Assembly (NCBI GenBank): GCA_001724025.1
Contig: MEDJ01000003.1
Location: 117,002-181,001 of the forward strand
Direction: 5' to 3'
Source of the DNA: Acidobacteria bacterium SCN 69-37
GTDB taxonomy: Bacteria; Acidobacteriota; Vicinamibacteria; Vicinamibacterales; SCN-69-37
DNA: 64,000 nucleotides
Shown here: one piece after another, positions 51,087 to 59,901 of the stretch
How positions within the stretch are numbered: the stretch's first letter is position 1
Layout of the letters: every line of letters begins with the position of its first letter
Position numbers and translations under genes: made by a program
The notes under the pieces: model-generated
Database searches by the model: none
What the model was told of the DNA's origin: nothing
The model's input: the letters and a program-made list of their open reading frames with translations, nothing else

Positions 51087-51805
51087 TGGCCTGGCATCCG
51101 TTCCGCAACTTCGGGCTGAAGGTCCTGGCGTTCTCGCTCGGCGGACTGCTGTGGTTCACGATCAGCGGCTACGAGATCGAGCGCCGCATCTCGGTGCCCG
51201 TGTCGTACCGCAATGTGCCGGCGTCGTTCGAGATGACGGGCGAGCAGACCGATCGAGTGACCGTGCAGGTGCGCGGGGACGACAACGTCGTGAGCGCACT
51301 GACCGAGGGCGCCATTCGCGTGGTCGTCGATCTCGAGGGCAGCCAGCCGGGCGCCAACACGATCCCGCTGCGGACCGATCAGGTGGCCACACCGCCGCGT
51401 GTCGACGTGCTGCAGATCGATCCCGGCACCGTCACCGTGATGATGGAGCGGGCCGGGCAGATCATGGTGCCGGTGCGGCCGACGCTCGAGGGGCGTCCGG
51501 CGCCGGGATTCGCCGTCACGCAGGTCACGGCCGATCCGGAACGCGTGACGATTGCCGGTCCCGAGAGTCGTCTCGTCGGGCGCATCGACGTCGTCACCGA
51601 GCGCATCATGGTGGAAGGGCGCAACGGCCGCTTCACGCAGGAAGTGGCCGTCGGCGTGAACAATCCCCGGCTGCGCGTGCAATCGCCGCGCACCGTGCGC
51701 GTCACGGTGACGATTGAGCCGGTGACGCCGGACGCCGGCGGCGCGTCCGGCGAGGCCGTCGTCGCGCCCGAGTCCCCGTCGCCTGGAGTATCGTCTGACC
51801 CGTGA
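51086..51805 (+). CDS. YbbR-domain protein (CdaR-like)
   Basis: N-terminal TM LKVLAFSLGGLLWF, YbbR repeats; between cdaA and glmM. Confidence 0.88.
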   Translation: MAWHPFRNFGLKVLAFSLGGLLWFTISGYEIERRISVPVSYRNVPASFEMTGEQTDRVTVQVRGDDNVVSALTEGAIRVVVDLEGSQPGANTIPLRTDQVATPPRVDVLQIDPGTVTVMMERAGQIMVPVRPTLEGRPAPGFAVTQVTADPERVTIAGPESRLVGRIDVVTERIMVEGRNGRFTQEVAVGVNNPRLRVQSPRTVRVTVTIEPVTPDAGGASGEAVVAPESPSPGVSSDP

Positions 51806-53139
51806 GTGACAAGTTGTTTGGAACCGATGGCGTTCGAGGCGTGGCCGGTGAGTGGCCGCTCGACGCGCGGACGGTGACGCGGCTCGGGGCCGCGCTCGTC
51901 CGGACCCTCGCGGTCCCCCAGGGGCCGCGCCTGATCGTCGGCCGCGACACGCGCGAGTCCGGCGAGTGGATCGAGCGGGCGCTGGCCAACGGCGCCGTCT
52001 GGGCGGGCGCGCACGTGACCAGCGCCGGTGTCGTGCCCACGCCGGCCGTCGCGTACCTGGCCGGAGCGCTGGATTTCGATCTCGGCGTCGTCCTGTCCGC
52101 CTCGCACAATCCGTATGCCGACAACGGCATCAAGGTGTTCTCGGGGCACGGCCAGAAGTTCGGCGAAGCGGCCGAGCGCGCCGTCGAGGCGATTGTCGCC
52201 GACCCGTCGTGGACCGTGCCGGAGTCGGCCGCGGCGACCATCGTGCAGCAGCCGCTCGTCGACGCGTACCTGGCGCACGTCAGCCAACTGCTCCCGTCCG
52301 TGTCGCGTCTGCGCGGGGCGCGGCTGGCCATCGACATGGCCAACGGGGCCACCACGGCCACGGCGGCGCGCGTCCTCGATCACCTCGGCTTCGAGCTGGT
52401 GACGACGGGCGACCGGCCCGACGGCCGGAACATCAACCTCGAGTGCGGATCGACGCACCCGCAGGGGCTGGCACGGGCCGTGGTCGAGTCGAGGTGCCTG
52501 CTCGGCATCGCCTTCGACGGTGACGGCGACCGCGCCATCTTCGTCGATCACACGGGGCGCATCGTCGATGGTGACGCCGTGCTGCTGATGCTCGCCCGCG
52601 CGCGGCAGCGCGAGGGACGGCTGGCGCACGAGACGGTCGTCGCCACGGTGATGAGCAACATCGGGCTGGAGATCGCGCTGCGCCGGCACGGCATCCGGCT
52701 CGTCCGCACGGGCGTGGGCGACAAGTACGTGATGGAGGAGATGGTGCGCGGCGGCTTCGTCCTGGGCGGCGAGCAGTCGGGACACATCATCCTGGCCGAG
52801 CACCTGGCCACCGGCGACGGCGTGGCTACGGCACTTGCCATCCTGAGCGTGCTCGAGGAAACCGGCCAGTCGCTCGCGGAGCTCGCCGCCGAGCTGGTGA
52901 CCTATCCCCAGACGCTGGTGAACGTGCGCGTGCGCGAGAAGGTGCCGGTGGCCTCCGTCCCGGCCGTGGCCGATGCCATCAGGCAGGTGGAAGCGGCGCT
53001 CGACGGACAGGGCCGGGTGCTGGTCCGGTACTCGGGGACCGAGCCGCTGCTGCGCATCATGATCGAGGGACCGACGCAGTCGGCCGTCGACGGGTGGGCC
53101 GAGCAGATTGCGGTCTCGGTGCGCACGCACCTCTGCTGA
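51802..53139 (+). CDS. glmM: Phosphoglucosamine mutase
   Basis: KLFGTDGVRGVAGEWPLD; SASHNPYADNGIKVFS; GDGDRAIFVD. Confidence 0.97.
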   Translation: MSDKLFGTDGVRGVAGEWPLDARTVTRLGAALVRTLAVPQGPRLIVGRDTRESGEWIERALANGAVWAGAHVTSAGVVPTPAVAYLAGALDFDLGVVLSASHNPYADNGIKVFSGHGQKFGEAAERAVEAIVADPSWTVPESAAATIVQQPLVDAYLAHVSQLLPSVSRLRGARLAIDMANGATTATAARVLDHLGFELVTTGDRPDGRNINLECGSTHPQGLARAVVESRCLLGIAFDGDGDRAIFVDHTGRIVDGDAVLLMLARARQREGRLAHETVVATVMSNIGLEIALRRHGIRLVRTGVGDKYVMEEMVRGGFVLGGEQSGHIILAEHLATGDGVATALAILSVLEETGQSLAELAAELVTYPQTLVNVRVREKVPVASVPAVADAIRQVEAALDGQGRVLVRYSGTEPLLRIMIEGPTQSAVDGWAEQIAVSVRTHLC

Positions 53140-53146
53140 GGCGGGC

Positions 53147-53926
53147 ATGGTACGGCTGTCGGTCAACGTGAACAAGGTGGCGACGCTGCGCAATTCGCGC
53201 GGCGGCCGGGAGCCCGGTGTGCTCCAGGCCGTGGACGTGTGTCTCGAGGCCGGCGCGCCGGGCATCACCGTGCACCATCGGGCCGACGAACGGCACATCC
53301 GGCGCGGCGACGTCCTCGACATCGCCGCACGGCTGGCGCAGGTGCGCGCGGACGGCGGCACACCGGAGTTCAATATCGAGGGCGATCCGCGCCCGGATCT
53401 GCTCGCGCTCGTGCACGAGGTGCGGCCCACCCAGTGCACGCTGGTCCCCGTCAGGCCCGGCGAGATCACGAGCCAGGCCGGGTGGCCCGTCGAGACGGAC
53501 GCGGCCTGGATGGGCGCCATCGTCAGGGACCTGCGGCACGCGGGGATCCGCGTATCGCTGTTCGTCGATCCGGATCCGGCGGCCGTCCGCTGGGCGGCGG
53601 CGCTCGAGGCCGACAGGGTCGAGCTCTATACGGAACCGTTCGCGCGTGCCTGGGAGCAGGGCGAGGGGGCGGCCCGCTTCGAGCAGTACGCTGCGGCCGC
53701 GCGCCTGGCGCACGATCTGGGCCTCGGTGTGAACGCCGGGCACGATCTCGATCTGCGCAACCTGCCGCTGTTCCGCTCGTTGCCGCACCTGGACGAGGTG
53801 TCGATCGGTCACGCGCTCATGTCGCACGCGCTGTTCGTCGGACTCGATCGGTCTGTGCGCGACTACCTGGCCGTGCTGGCCCCACCTGGCGATCGGAGCG
53901 TGAACGACACGCCTCCGACTGTATGA
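53147..53926 (+). CDS. pdxJ: Pyridoxine 5'-phosphate synthase
   Basis: RLSVNVNKVATLRNSRGGREP; GITVHHRADERHIRRGDV; GVNAGHDLDLRNLP. Confidence 0.96.
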   Translation: MVRLSVNVNKVATLRNSRGGREPGVLQAVDVCLEAGAPGITVHHRADERHIRRGDVLDIAARLAQVRADGGTPEFNIEGDPRPDLLALVHEVRPTQCTLVPVRPGEITSQAGWPVETDAAWMGAIVRDLRHAGIRVSLFVDPDPAAVRWAAALEADRVELYTEPFARAWEQGEGAARFEQYAAAARLAHDLGLGVNAGHDLDLRNLPLFRSLPHLDEVSIGHALMSHALFVGLDRSVRDYLAVLAPPGDRSVNDTPPTV

Positions 53927-53945
53927 TCGACGGTCGAGATCTCTG

Positions 53946-54557
53946 ATGCGGAAAGATTCCCTTGCGTTCGCGCTGTCCGGTGTCGTGTTCGGGCTGTTGA
54001 TGGGCTGGATGATCGGCACGCAGCACGCGCCGCAGCCTGCTGCGCCGGCGGCCGCGCCCGTGGCGCAGGCCGCGCCGGGCCAGCAGCCGGCCGCCGCGCC
54101 GCCGCCGCTCGATCAGGCCCGCGTCTCGGCCCTCGAGCAGCAGGCCAAGGCCGAGCCCGGCAATGCGGCCGTGCGCATTGCGCTCGGCAATCTCTATTTC
54201 GACTCGGAACAGTTCGCCGACGCGGCGCCCTGGTACGAGGCGGCCCTCGAGATCGATCCGCGGAACGTGGATGCGACGACCGATCTCGGCATCGTCTACT
54301 TCTACCAGCGGCAGTTCGATCGCGCGCTCGCGACGTTCGACAGGGCCCTGGCCGTCGATCCCGGCCACGTCAAGGCGCTGCTCAACCAGGGCATCGTCAG
54401 GAGCATGGGGAAGCAGGACTTCGCGGGTGCGGCCGAGTCGTGGGAGAGGGTCGTGACGCTGGCTCCCGACAGCGAAGAGGCACGGCTGGCCAGAATGGGG
54501 CTCGAGGGGATCCGTTCGAGCCAGGCGCCGGGTCAGGGCGCTGCTGCCGTGCAGTAG
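53946..54557 (+). CDS. Membrane-anchored TPR protein
   Basis: N-terminal TM; TPR-like ALGNLYFDSEQFADAAPWYEAALEIDP / LGIVYFYQRQFDRALATFDRALAVDP. Confidence 0.88.
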   Translation: MRKDSLAFALSGVVFGLLMGWMIGTQHAPQPAAPAAAPVAQAAPGQQPAAAPPPLDQARVSALEQQAKAEPGNAAVRIALGNLYFDSEQFADAAPWYEAALEIDPRNVDATTDLGIVYFYQRQFDRALATFDRALAVDPGHVKALLNQGIVRSMGKQDFAGAAESWERVVTLAPDSEEARLARMGLEGIRSSQAPGQGAAAVQ

Positions 54558-54564
54558 GTGATTC

Positions 54565-54867
54565 GTGGCCCTGCTGCTCTGGATCCTGCGCGTCCTCGTC
54601 CTGCTGCTGATTGCCCGGTTCCTCGTGACGATGGTGCGGCAGGCGATCCGATACGCCGGGGGCTCGTCGTCCTCGCCGAATCCGGCACGCGGGAGGAAGC
54701 CCGAGCGGATTGGCGGGACGCTCGTGCAGGATCCGCAGTGCGGCACGTACATTCCGCAGGACCGCGCGATTGCGCACACGTCCGGTGGAGCAACGACCTA
54801 CTTCTGCTCGACGACGTGCCGGGATGCGTGGATGCAGGGAACCGCGGAGTCACGGGCCCGATCGTGA
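54565..54867 (+). CDS. Small membrane protein with YHS/PP0621-like cysteine motif
   Basis: LVQDPQCGTYIPQDRAIAHTSGGATTYFCSTTCRDAWM. Confidence 0.8.
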   Translation: MALLLWILRVLVLLLIARFLVTMVRQAIRYAGGSSSSPNPARGRKPERIGGTLVQDPQCGTYIPQDRAIAHTSGGATTYFCSTTCRDAWMQGTAESRARS

Positions 54868-55164: not shown

Positions 55165-56061
55165 ATGTCTGACTCCCAACTCCGTGAAGACATCGTCGAG
55201 ATTGGCCGTCGTCTCTGGCTGCGCGGGTTCGTCGCGTCCAACGACGGCAACATCAGCGTGCGCGTTGCCGACGACCGTGTGCTGATGACGCCGACCGCTG
55301 TGTCGAAGGGCTTCATGACGCCCGACATGATGGTCATCACCGACATGGACGGCACGCTCGTCTCCGGCGCGCCCGGGCGCAAGCCCTCGTCCGAGATCAA
55401 GATGCACCTGGTCGCGTACAGGCAACGGCCGGACGTGAAGGCCGTCGTCCATGCGCACCCGCCGCTCGCGACAGGGTTCGCGGTCGCCGGCATTCCCCTC
55501 GACCGCGCCGTGCTCGCCGAGGTCGTGACGACGCTCGGCAGCATCCCGATTGCGGAGTACGCCACGCCGTCGACGCAGGAACTGCCGGACGCGGTGAAGC
55601 CGTATGTCGGCGCGCACGACGGCCTGCTGCTCGCCAATCACGGGGCGCTCGCGCTCGGGGCCGACCTGTTCGGCGCGTACTACAAGATGGAGACGATCGA
55701 GCACTTTGCGCGCATCAGCCTGGTGGCGCGGCAGCTCGGTCGCGAGAACCTCCTCTCGCGCGACGAGGTCGATCGGCTCCAGGGACTCCGCACGCGATAC
55801 GGGATCGCGTCGCCCGCGCCCGTGTGCGTGGACGAGACGCCGGGCGCGCGTCGCGGGCCTGACGAGGCCGTGAACTGTCAGGCGGTCTACGCGCCGGCCA
55901 CGAGCGGCGAGCGACTCGTGCCCGATCCCGGAACGGTCCCCGCGGTCGAGGCCGGTTCGGTAGGTACGAACGGCGGGATTCGGCTAACATACGCGCAGTT
56001 GACGGCGCTCATCGACGACGCCGTTGCGCAGGTTGCTGAAGGACTGGGACTCAAGCGGTAG
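55165..56061 (+). CDS. Class II aldolase/adducin family protein with C-terminal encapsulation-peptide-like helix (BMC cargo)
   Basis: SNDGNISVRV, GRKPSSEIKMHLVAYRQRPDVKAVVHAHPP, ANHGALALG; linker then LTYAQLTALIDDAVAQVAEGLGLKR. Confidence 0.92.
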   Translation: MSDSQLREDIVEIGRRLWLRGFVASNDGNISVRVADDRVLMTPTAVSKGFMTPDMMVITDMDGTLVSGAPGRKPSSEIKMHLVAYRQRPDVKAVVHAHPPLATGFAVAGIPLDRAVLAEVVTTLGSIPIAEYATPSTQELPDAVKPYVGAHDGLLLANHGALALGADLFGAYYKMETIEHFARISLVARQLGRENLLSRDEVDRLQGLRTRYGIASPAPVCVDETPGARRGPDEAVNCQAVYAPATSGERLVPDPGTVPAVEAGSVGTNGGIRLTYAQLTALIDDAVAQVAEGLGLKR

Positions 56062-56085
56062 ATCCGGTTCCTCCTGGAGGGTCAG

Positions 56086-56373
56086 ATGGGCGAGGCGCTC
56101 GGAATGGTCGAGACGAAGGGGCTGGTCGCGATGATCGAAGCGGCCGACGCCATGGTCAAGGCCGCAAAGGTCACGTTGGTCGGGTGGGAGAAGATCGGAG
56201 CCGGCTACGTGACCGCGATCGTCCGCGGTGACGTCGCGGCCGTCAAGGCCGCCACCGATGCCGGTGCCGCCGCCGCGCGCCGCGTCGGCGAACTCGTCTC
56301 CGTCCACGTCATCCCGCGGCCGCACGCCAATCTCGAGGACGTGCTGCCGATCGGCAAGGCCGCCAAGGGCTGA
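56086..56373 (+). CDS. Microcompartment shell protein, BMC-H (hexamer)
   Basis: [77 protein letters not shown]. Confidence 0.98.
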
Positions 56374-56392
56374 ACGCGTTCGGCGTCGTTCC

Positions 56393-56662
56393 ATGCTCCT
56401 CGCCAGAATCGTCGGCACGGTCGTCGCCACGCGCAAGGACGATCGGCTCGTCAGCAGCAAGTTCCTCATCGTCAGGCCCGTCGATCCGGCCGGCACGCCG
56501 GAGGGGAACCATCTCGTGGCTGTCGACACCGTGGATGCCGGCGTGGGCGAGACCGTGCTCGTCGTCAGCGGCAGTTCCGCGCGCATGGCCGCCGGGTTGA
56601 AGGACTCGCCCGTGGACGCGGCCATCGTCGGCGTGGTCGATCAGGTCGAGGTGAAGGGGTAG
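56393..56662 (+). CDS. Microcompartment vertex protein, BMC-P (EutN/CcmL family), paralog 1
   Basis: MLLARIVGTVVATRKDDRLVSSKFLIVRPVD...AVDTVDAGVGETVLVVSGSSAR...VDAAIVGVVD. Confidence 0.97.
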   Translation: MLLARIVGTVVATRKDDRLVSSKFLIVRPVDPAGTPEGNHLVAVDTVDAGVGETVLVVSGSSARMAAGLKDSPVDAAIVGVVDQVEVKG

Positions 56663-56668
56663 CGCGTC

Positions 56669-56965
56669 GTGCACCTCGCACGCGTGGTGGGCGACGTGGT
56701 GGCCACGATCAAGGACCCGGAGCTGCACGGACACCGGCTCCTGGTGCTCCAGCCCATCCTGCCCGATGCGTCACCCGTGGGACGCCGACTCGTTGCCGTG
56801 GACGCCACGGGCGCGGGTGTCGGGGAGTACGTGTTCTTCGTGCGCGGCAGGGAAGCCTCGTTCCCGTTCCTGCCCGCAGCGCCGCCTGTCGACGCGTGCG
56901 TCGTGGGCATCGTCGATGCGTGGCACGTGGATGAGGACGCACAGAGCGGGCCACCGCGTTCGTGA
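56669..56965 (+). CDS. Microcompartment vertex protein, BMC-P, paralog 2
   Basis: MHLARVVGDVVATIKDPELHGHRLLVLQPI...AVDATGAGVGEYVFFVRGREASF...VDACVVGIVD; GTG start. Confidence 0.95.
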   Translation: MHLARVVGDVVATIKDPELHGHRLLVLQPILPDASPVGRRLVAVDATGAGVGEYVFFVRGREASFPFLPAAPPVDACVVGIVDAWHVDEDAQSGPPRS

Positions 56966-56980
56966 GTGAGGGAATCGTTC

Positions 56981-57385
56981 ATGCAGATTGGCCGTGTCGT
57001 CGGGACCGTCGTGGCGACGCAGAAGCACGCGAAGCTCGAGGGGGCAAAGCTGCTGCTCGTGCAGCCGACCGACCCGGACGGCGCCGACAGGGGCGTGCCG
57101 CTGCTGACGATTGATTCGGTGGGCGCGGGTGTTGGCGAGCGCGTGCTGATCGTGGTCGAGGGACGCGCGGCCGGTGAGGCGCTGCGCCGCAAGGCCGCGC
57201 CTGTCGACGCGGCCATCATCGGGATCATCGACGCGGTCACCATGGCCGAGGCCGCAGGCGCGTCCCCCGGACCTGAAGGTCCGGGGCTCCGCTTCGCAGA
57301 AGGGAGCCCCGGGGCTTCAGCCCCGGGGACCGCGTCCGAGGCCGCAGGTGCGCCCGTTGCGGCGCGCGGGACGCACACGCGATGA
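56981..57385 (+). CDS. Microcompartment vertex protein, BMC-P, paralog 3, with REP-derived C-terminal tail
   Basis: MQIGRVVGTVVATQKHAKLEGAKLLLVQPTD...IDSVGAGVGERVLIVVEG...VDAAIIGIIDAV; tail [20 protein letters not shown] encoded by REP pair. Confidence 0.93.
   Translation: MQIGRVVGTVVATQKHAKLEGAKLLLVQPTDPDGADRGVPLLTIDSVGAGVGERVLIVVEGRAAGEALRRKAAPVDAAIIGIIDAVTMAEAAGASPGPEGPGLRFAEGSPGASAPGTASEAAGAPVAARGTHTR
57264..57331. repeat. REP pair (BIME-like) inside BMC-P3 coding sequence
   Basis: CCCCGGACCTGAAGGTCCGGGGCTCCG...GGAGCCCCGGGGCTTCAGCCCCGGGGA. Confidence 0.85.
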
Positions 57386-57684
57386 ACGACGAGGAACTCC
57401 GGACGATCGTCCGCGACGCGGTCGCGCGTCACCTGGGACGGGCTGGGGCGCCGGTCCCGGTATTCCCCGGACCTGAAGGTCCGGGGCTCCGTTCAGCAGA
57501 AAGTCCGGGGCTCCATCTGTCAGAACGGAGCCCCGGGGCTTCAGCCCCGGGGAACACGCCCGCCTGGCGCCAGCACGCCAGTCATCAGCTCTATGTGTCG
57601 CTCGTCAATGTCGATGGCGCGTGCGTGATCGAGCCGTCGGTGGCGTGCGATCACTGCGGCTACTGCAGGAGCCATGGCCACTGA
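57382..57684 (+). CDS. Small BMC-associated protein: encapsulation-peptide-like N-terminus, REP-derived middle, C-terminal CxxCxxC motif
   Basis: MNDEELRTIVRDAVARHL; C-terminus HASHQLYVSLVNVDGACVIEPSVACDHCGYCRSHGH; overlaps neighbours on both sides. Confidence 0.75.
   Translation: MNDEELRTIVRDAVARHLGRAGAPVPVFPGPEGPGLRSAESPGLHLSERSPGASAPGNTPAWRQHASHQLYVSLVNVDGACVIEPSVACDHCGYCRSHGH
57464..57554. repeat. REP pair (BIME-like) inside the small BMC-associated ORF
   Basis: CCCCGGACCTGAAGGTCCGGGGCTCCG ... GGAGCCCCGGGGCTTCAGCCCCGGGGA. Confidence 0.85.
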
Positions 57685-58621
57685 TCGTGCGACGGTCCTC
57701 GTGACGGGCCAGCTGCCGTCTTCGGCCCTCGCTCTGCTCGGCGACGTCGACGTGCGGACGGTGGACGGGACGACGAATCGTCAGGCGTTCCTCGAGGCCG
57801 CGCGCGGTGTCGACGCGATGATGACGTTCGTCACCGACACGGTCGATGCGGCGCTGCTGGACGCGGCGGGGCCCGCGCTGAAGATTGTGGCCAACGTGGC
57901 TGTCGGCTTCGACAACATCGACGTCTCGGCGACCAGGCCGCACGGGATCGTCGTGACGAACACACCCGACGTGCTCAACGGCGCGGTCGCCGAACTGACG
58001 TGGGGCCTGATCTTCGCGATCGCGCGCCGCATCGGCGAAAGCGACCGGCTCGTGCGCCGCGGCGACTGGCACGGCTGGGCGTTCGATTTCATGACCGGCA
58101 TGGAACTGGCCGGCAAGACGCTCGGCATCATCGGCAAGGGACGCATCGGGCGTGACGTGGCCAGGCGCGCCGCGGCGTTCGACATGCGCGTCGTGTTCGG
58201 CGGCCGCGAAGCCGGGGGCGAGGTCGACGGACACCCGGTGTTCGCGATCGATGACGTGCTGGCGATGGCCGACGTCGTGTCGCTGCACGTGCCGGGGCGT
58301 CCGGACACGCGACACCTGATCGATGCGCGCGCGCTCGACCTGATGAAGCCGACGGCGTACCTGATCAACACCGCGCGCGGGATCGTCGTCGACGAGGCCG
58401 CGCTCGTCGAGGCGCTGAGGACGCGGCGCATTGCCGGCGCCGGGCTCGATGTCTTCGAGCGCGAGCCTGTCGTTCATCCGGGTCTGATCGGGCTCGACAA
58501 CGTCGTCCTGTTGCCGCACATCGGCAGTGCCACGGTGGAAACCCGTACGGCCATGGCCGAACTGGCGGCGCGCAATGTCGCGGCCGTGCTCGCCGGCCGG
58601 CCGCCAGTGACGCCGGTGTGA
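57674..58621 (+). CDS. D-2-hydroxyacid dehydrogenase (glyoxylate/hydroxypyruvate reductase-like)
   Basis: LAGKTLGIIGKGRIGRDVARRAAAFDMRVVFG; MKPTAYLINTARGIVVDEAALVEAL; VVLLPHIGSAT. Confidence 0.93.
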   Translation: MATDRATVLVTGQLPSSALALLGDVDVRTVDGTTNRQAFLEAARGVDAMMTFVTDTVDAALLDAAGPALKIVANVAVGFDNIDVSATRPHGIVVTNTPDVLNGAVAELTWGLIFAIARRIGESDRLVRRGDWHGWAFDFMTGMELAGKTLGIIGKGRIGRDVARRAAAFDMRVVFGGREAGGEVDGHPVFAIDDVLAMADVVSLHVPGRPDTRHLIDARALDLMKPTAYLINTARGIVVDEAALVEALRTRRIAGAGLDVFEREPVVHPGLIGLDNVVLLPHIGSATVETRTAMAELAARNVAAVLAGRPPVTPV

Positions 58622-59277
58622 GCGACCCGGCTCTCGTCCTGCGCCGCATTGCGCGCGCCATGCGCGGGATGAACGAACTGGCGGTCGAGAAGATCAGCAC
58701 GGCATCGCGCCGGGATCCGTTCCGCGTCCTGATCTCTACCCTGCTCTCGGCGCAGACGAAAGACGCCGTGACGCATGCCGCGTCGACGCGCCTGTTCGCC
58801 GTGGCCCGTACGCCCGAGGCCATCGTCGCGCTCACGCCGGCCCGGATCGAGAAGCTCATCTATCCCGTCAGCTTCTATCGCAACAAGGCCGTACACGTGC
58901 GCGCGTGCTGCCGCCGGCTGATCGACGCGTACGGCGGACAGGTGCCGGACACGATGGAGGCGCTGCTGACGCTTCCGGGCGTGGGACGCAAGACCGCGAA
59001 CCTCGTGCTGATCCTGTCGCACGCGAGCCGCAACAACATCTGCGTCGACACGCACGTGCACCGGATCGCGAACCGCCTGGGCTGGGTGGCGACGAGAACC
59101 CCCGAGGAGACGGAGTTCGCGCTGTACCGCGTTGTGCCGAAGCGCTACTGGGCCGACGTGAACCTGCGCCTCGTCACCTGGGGCCAGAACGTGTGCAAGC
59201 CCGTCTATCCGCGGTGCGCGGCCTGCGTGATCGCCGACGTTTGTCCTAAGATCGGGGTCACGAAACAAGGACGGTGA
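58618..59277 (+). CDS. nth: Endonuclease III
   Basis: [28 protein letters not shown] HhH, VDTHVHRIANRLGW; C-terminal Cys pattern C-x6-CxxC-x5-C. Confidence 0.95.
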   Translation: MSDPALVLRRIARAMRGMNELAVEKISTASRRDPFRVLISTLLSAQTKDAVTHAASTRLFAVARTPEAIVALTPARIEKLIYPVSFYRNKAVHVRACCRRLIDAYGGQVPDTMEALLTLPGVGRKTANLVLILSHASRNNICVDTHVHRIANRLGWVATRTPEETEFALYRVVPKRYWADVNLRLVTWGQNVCKPVYPRCAACVIADVCPKIGVTKQGR

Positions 59278-59854: not shown

Positions 59855-59901
59855 CGGAGCCCCGGGCTTTCGGAGCCCTGGGGCTTCAGCCCCAGGGAGC
59901 C
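59855..59901. repeat. GGAG-REP, one decayed and one intact copy
   Basis: CGGAGCCCCGGGCTTTCGGAGCCCTGGGGCTTCAGCCCCAGGGA. Confidence 0.85.

Follow-up and report, generated by a model that had tools for sequence, protein, structure and literature searches.

A bacterial microcompartment locus of the ACI type in Acidobacteria bacterium SCN 69-37, with its aldehyde dehydrogenase at a satellite site

Assignment to the ACI type

The bacterial microcompartment (BMC) type ACI was defined by Sutter et al. in 2021 (PMC8217296) and has 125 members in Acidobacteria, mainly from subdivisions 4 and 6. Loci of this type contain a class II aldolase carrying an encapsulation peptide (EP) at its C-terminus, a hydroxyacid dehydrogenase, a BMC-P triplet, at least one BMC-H and proteins of unknown function, while the aldehyde dehydrogenase (AldDH) is consistently found on a satellite locus (PMC8217296). 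Here we describe a BMC locus in a 64,000-nucleotide stretch of Acidobacteria bacterium SCN 69-37 (contig MEDJ01000003.1, positions 117,002 to 181,001), hereafter the window. The locus spans positions 55165-58621 of the window and consists of seven genes with intact reading frames; coordinates and Pfam matches bear out the content and order given in a first-pass annotation, namely a class II aldolase, the shell genes for one BMC-H and three BMC-P, a small Cys-rich open reading frame (ORF) and the gene for a D-2-hydroxyacid dehydrogenase, with nth coming next.

The features of the ACI type that were compared are found here: a pfam00596 aldolase with a predicted C-terminal EP, a pfam00389/02826 dehydrogenase within the locus, a BMC-P triplet, at least one BMC-H, an AldDH on a satellite, and acidobacterial relatives. 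Since every ACI feature tested is present, the locus is an ordinary, intact member of this known BMC type. Comparison with the published BMC catalogue, a check that the first-pass annotation had itself proposed, shows that the locus matches a catalogued type.

Statements on the whole genome rest on targeted family searches of the assembly, which is rated 100% complete. The annotated lack of a local AldDH, PduL and BMC-T is confirmed, and the genome-wide searches returned no match to PduL (PF06130) or to Pta/Ptb (PF01515). There are only three matches to PF00936, each a short single-domain frame, so no tandem BMC-T is seen in the genome, and the only three matches to PF03319 all fall in this locus. 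The missing local AldDH is explained by the published ACI pattern, which places this enzyme on a satellite. In the same genome, on a separate contig (C1), a 560 aa AldDH is encoded directly downstream of a second BMC-H; the locus at 55165-58621 is the main locus, and the AldDH with the second BMC-H is its satellite. The earlier proposal of a satellite locus with its AldDH elsewhere was right about the enzyme and had the two sites reversed.

When the satellite loci of this genome and its relatives are compared (30 loci), BMC-H adjoins the AldDH gene in 27. The best curated match of the AldDH is the acetylating acetaldehyde dehydrogenase TIGR02518 (570.7 bits, slightly below the cut-off of 620.1), and among solved structures it comes closest to acetylating acetaldehyde dehydrogenases and AdhE (350-460 bits), compared to approximately 176 bits for 4c3s, which we take to be a GRM5-type AldDH, and 165 bits for 5jfl. 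The protein ends in a conserved tail, made up of a linker and the C-terminal motif FVCEDDVR...TIVTPxARDLG, that has no match in Pfam or the PDB. In most relatives, a divergent gene encoding a predicted lipoprotein-like protein of 303 aa (L007:9022-9933 in this genome) lies upstream of the satellite BMC-H and AldDH. A third BMC-H gene stands alone on another contig (C2; L008:9790-10146), with no BMC gene nearby, and is convergent with a MerR-like regulator gene.

Conservation in related genomes

The gene order glmM-pdxJ-TPR-YHS-aldolase-BMC-H-P1-P2-P3-Cys-rich-dehydrogenase-nth is kept in 80 related loci as far as their contigs extend, a recurrence far beyond chance. The nearest loci come almost entirely from acidobacterial metagenome-assembled genomes, the relatives placing the host most probably in class Vicinamibacteria, and no AldDH was found in the retrieved flanks of the 80 related main loci. 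Among the 53 loci that are complete from the aldolase to nth, BMC-H, P1 and P3 are present in all 53 and P2 in 52.

In a comparison of 149 genomes from the class, BMC-P was identified in 129 and AldDH in 126; 118 genomes encode both, 12 neither and 19 only one of the two (p=6e-7, not corrected for kinship). These totals slightly overstate the ACI type because some of the BMC-P and AldDH counted in families f8 and f12 come from BMCs of other types, whose loci include the AldDH gene. Inspected by eye, two of these loci (L189 and L195) resemble PVM and contain an aldolase as well, and three (L187, L188 and L190) look SPU-like. As a single case, one genome of the same order (G051, 97% complete) lacks BMC-P, AldDH and MtnA altogether, possibly through coordinated loss.

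Predicted cargo and proposed mechanism

The aldolase (55165-56061, forward strand, as are the other genes of the locus, nth and the upstream flank) is a 298 aa protein with a PF00596 match of 169.5 bits and a C-terminal extension of approximately 100 aa. Glu77, its catalytic residue and the counterpart of the catalytic Glu76 in an alignment with DrdA, is identical in 81 of 81 homologues, and so are the metal-binding His96, His98 and His159 as well as Asn29, Thr42 and Ser75; the catalytic and phosphate-site residues are all kept. The C-terminus holds an amphipathic helix resembling an encapsulation peptide, LTYAQLTALIDDAVAQVAEGL, called by pattern and amphipathicity and predicted to serve targeting. 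This helix occurs in all 81 sequences, and its amphipathicity is significant in 84% of the 80 tails tested. One BMC aldolase from the sister family f17 lacks the tail.

As the enzyme families suggest, the aldolase would be packed in the shell and would cleave a ketose 1-phosphate into dihydroxyacetone phosphate (DHAP) and a short, probably two-carbon aldehyde, and the AldDH would oxidise the trapped aldehyde to an acyl-CoA. This product is probably not made into an acyl phosphate in the lumen, because neither known phosphotransacylase family is encoded. Leaving the identity of the substrate aside, we consider ACI membership together with this aldolase and AldDH mechanism to be probable.

The dehydrogenase (57674-58621; PF02826/PF00389) is glyoxylate-reductase-like and present in 46 of the 53 complete loci; the seven loci without it keep the shell and the aldolase, and it is therefore not essential. 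It is a dispensable accessory enzyme, perhaps one that recycles NAD+. The small Cys-rich ORF (57382-57684) matches no Pfam family, however its recurrence in 44 of the 53 complete loci shows that it is a real gene product. It has the C-terminal motif C-x7-C-x2-C-x2-C-x4-H, in which Cys81, Cys89, Cys92 and Cys95 are invariant, and AlphaFold predicts a helix at residues 3-19 (pLDDT approximately 94 over residues 1-10), a low-confidence disordered linker and, at the C-terminus, a small part rich in Cys. In a profile comparison of its N-terminus with the aldolase tail, unrelated proteins scored alike. The protein may be a small cargo or organiser that would bind metal or an Fe-S cluster and be targeted to the shell.

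Candidate substrates and alternative explanations

Seven near-complete relatives (G003, G009, G022, G023, G042, G060 and G085) encode a single PF00596 protein; as this protein adjoins the BMC-P genes, these genomes have no MtnB or separate FucA. The SCN 69-37 genome encodes MtnA (TIGR00512, 441.9 bits, above the equivalog cut-off of 279) in a DeoA-PNP-Cdd-MtnA run of genes for pyrimidine- and purine-nucleoside phosphorylases, cytidine deaminase and this isomerase, which converts aldose 1-phosphates into ketose 1-phosphates; the run is conserved over much of the order. We infer that MtnA is the likeliest source of a ketose 1-phosphate in this order. Two FucA-like aldolases that function without a shell act on such products, as DrdA converts 5-deoxyribulose 1-phosphate into DHAP and acetaldehyde (PMC6079011), and the haloarchaeal ribulose-1-phosphate aldolase yields DHAP and glycolaldehyde (PMC9700705). 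The best solved-structure match of the BMC aldolase is DrdA (6btd), by the small margin of 94.1 bits to 90.9 for other FucA-like enzymes, and its match to the NCBIfam family RU1PAldHalo scores 101.6 bits at a cut-off of 300. We tentatively propose that ACI is an organelle for nucleoside sugars, in which phosphorylases would release ribose 1-phosphate or 5-deoxyribose 1-phosphate, MtnA would isomerise it to ribulose 1-phosphate or 5-deoxyribulose 1-phosphate, and the aldolase and AldDH would produce DHAP and glycolyl-CoA or acetyl-CoA, with no known phosphotransacylase involved. We found no paper linking microcompartments with 5-deoxyribose or ribulose-1-phosphate, and as far as we found this functional hypothesis is new.

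Several observations weigh against this proposal and against parts of the mechanism. DeoB is present, which gives ribose 1-phosphate an alternative route; MtnA is also encoded in family f16, which has no BMC and mostly no PF00596 protein at all; the MtnA genes of family f17 have no adjoining phosphorylase genes; and the MtnA gene lies apart from those of the BMC. The DeoB route and the occurrence of MtnA in f16 and, unlinked, in f17 are the reasons why the nucleoside substrate is put forward only tentatively. One f17 genome (G005) also carries an MtnB-like protein (L178, identified by eye), suggesting that MtnA serves methionine salvage in that genome. Regarding the proteins themselves, the aldolase scores under every NCBIfam equivalog cut-off, and its substrate is therefore not fixed by sequence, while neither the AldDH tail helix nor the helix of the Cys-rich protein is significantly amphipathic. 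We came across no biochemical study of an ACI BMC. Two stronger forms of the proposal were rejected: MtnA occurs almost throughout the class and does not mark BMC genomes, and with DeoB present its use for ribose 1-phosphate is not obligatory.

The aldolase may instead act on another phosphorylated substrate, either as an OtnC-like decarboxylase of 3-oxo-tetronate 4-phosphate or on a ketose 1-phosphate supplied by a kinase outside the FGGY family, which we regard as somewhat unlikely. OtnC is the top NCBIfam match of the aldolase, however the score of 135.8 bits is below the cut-off of 250. The products of the OtnC reaction are DHAP and CO2, with no aldehyde, and the AldDH would be left with nothing to oxidise.

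A fucose/rhamnose metabolosome of the PVM or GRM5 kind, in which the aldolase would release lactaldehyde from fuculose 1-phosphate or rhamnulose 1-phosphate, is a further alternative, and the first-pass annotation had compared the locus with fucose/rhamnose-type BMCs. The aldolase belongs to the same superfamily as those of PVM and GRM5, and on that ground Sutter et al. propose a carbohydrate function for ACI (PMC8217296). However, SCN 69-37 has a separate rhamnose cluster consisting of an isomerase, a rhamnulokinase and an aldolase-dehydrogenase fusion exceeding its cut-off, and this rhamnulose-1-phosphate aldolase/dehydrogenase fusion is the only PF00596 protein in the genome besides the BMC aldolase. 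In addition, the BMC-bearing relative G042 encodes no FGGY kinase, and G023 and G022 have glycerol kinase as their sole member of the family, so that the usual kinase supply of fuculose or rhamnulose 1-phosphate is missing in these three genomes. With an AldDH of the acetylating acetaldehyde dehydrogenase lineage, far from 4c3s and 5jfl, and no PduL in the genome, a fucose/rhamnose function is improbable here, and either sugar is unlikely to be the conserved substrate.

It had also been suggested that the dehydrogenase replaces the AldDH, handling the aldolase product or aldehyde without CoA chemistry. The dehydrogenase gene overlaps the BMC genes and is part of the ACI definition, however a CoA-type AldDH is encoded with BMC-H in this genome and most relatives, and the seven complete loci without a dehydrogenase make this very unlikely. 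Lastly, the small number of genes and the lack of a local AldDH might point to decay, with the locus being what is left of a different BMC, or a satellite of one, after loss of its AldDH. This can be dismissed given the intact frames, the same content and order in 80 related loci, and the presence of BMC-P in most genomes of the class.

Shell genes, flanking genes and repeats

The BMC-H gene (56086-56373; PF00936, 104.6 bits) encodes a protein that exceeds the NCBIfam cut-off for EutM. It is followed by the genes for BMC-P shell protein 1 (56393-56662; PF03319, 107 bits), shell protein 2, which has a GTG start (56669-56965; 91 bits), and shell protein 3 (56981-57385; 102 bits). Based on their coordinates, BMC-P3, the Cys-rich ORF, the dehydrogenase, nth (endonuclease III, 58618-59277) and then a peptidyl-prolyl isomerase gene overlap by 4-11 bases. 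Although it overlaps its neighbour in the same run, nth belongs to the housekeeping flank and not to the BMC. Upstream, glmM, pdxJ, a TPR protein gene and the gene for a small YHS-like protein (51802-54867) form a chromosomal context that is fixed in the class.

A repetitive extragenic palindrome (REP)-like sequence, GAGCCCCGGGGCTTCAGCCCCGGGG, occurs with at most three mismatches in 17 copies in the window against 0 expected, located at 57304-57328, 57528-57552, 59873-59897 and 14 sites between 16998 and 50210. Two copies lie inside coding regions, where they lengthen the C-terminal part of BMC-P3 and the linker of the Cys-rich protein; the Cys-rich protein of the closest relative lacks the insert.

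Significance and comparison with known systems

Microcompartments of the ACI type occur widely among soil Acidobacteria. The analysis weakens the case for fucose and rhamnose, finds neither known phosphotransacylase in this genome and offers a substrate hypothesis that can be tested. If the nucleoside proposal is true, it would explain the fixed place of this organelle among housekeeping genes, and ACI would be a metabolosome that does without PduL and Pta and a microcompartment whose substrate is supplied by an isomerase of aldose 1-phosphates, as near-core equipment of a major soil clade.

Among known systems, DrdA of the DHAP shunt and the haloarchaeal ribulose-1-phosphate aldolases resemble the proposed pathway in placing a FucA-like aldolase after a phosphorylase or kinase and an isomerase, but no shell has been described for them (PMC6079011, PMC9700705). 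SPU loci, with a DeoC aldolase and deoxyribose derived from DNA, would share a pentose phosphate, an aldolase and a two-carbon aldehyde if the nucleoside proposal is right; they differ in that the aldolase here is of the class II FucA type rather than DeoC, and there is no RpiB in the locus and no BMC-T. The PVM, PVM-like and GRM5 loci share a class II aldolase of the same superfamily, whereas the present locus has no local AldDH and no PduL, its AldDH comes from another lineage, and some relatives of this genome do without fuculokinase or rhamnulokinase. From the ACI type itself there is no essential difference. To its description the analysis adds a satellite in the same genome, which has no match to PduL or Pta, as well as relatives that have lost the dehydrogenase and a conserved motif in the Cys-rich protein.

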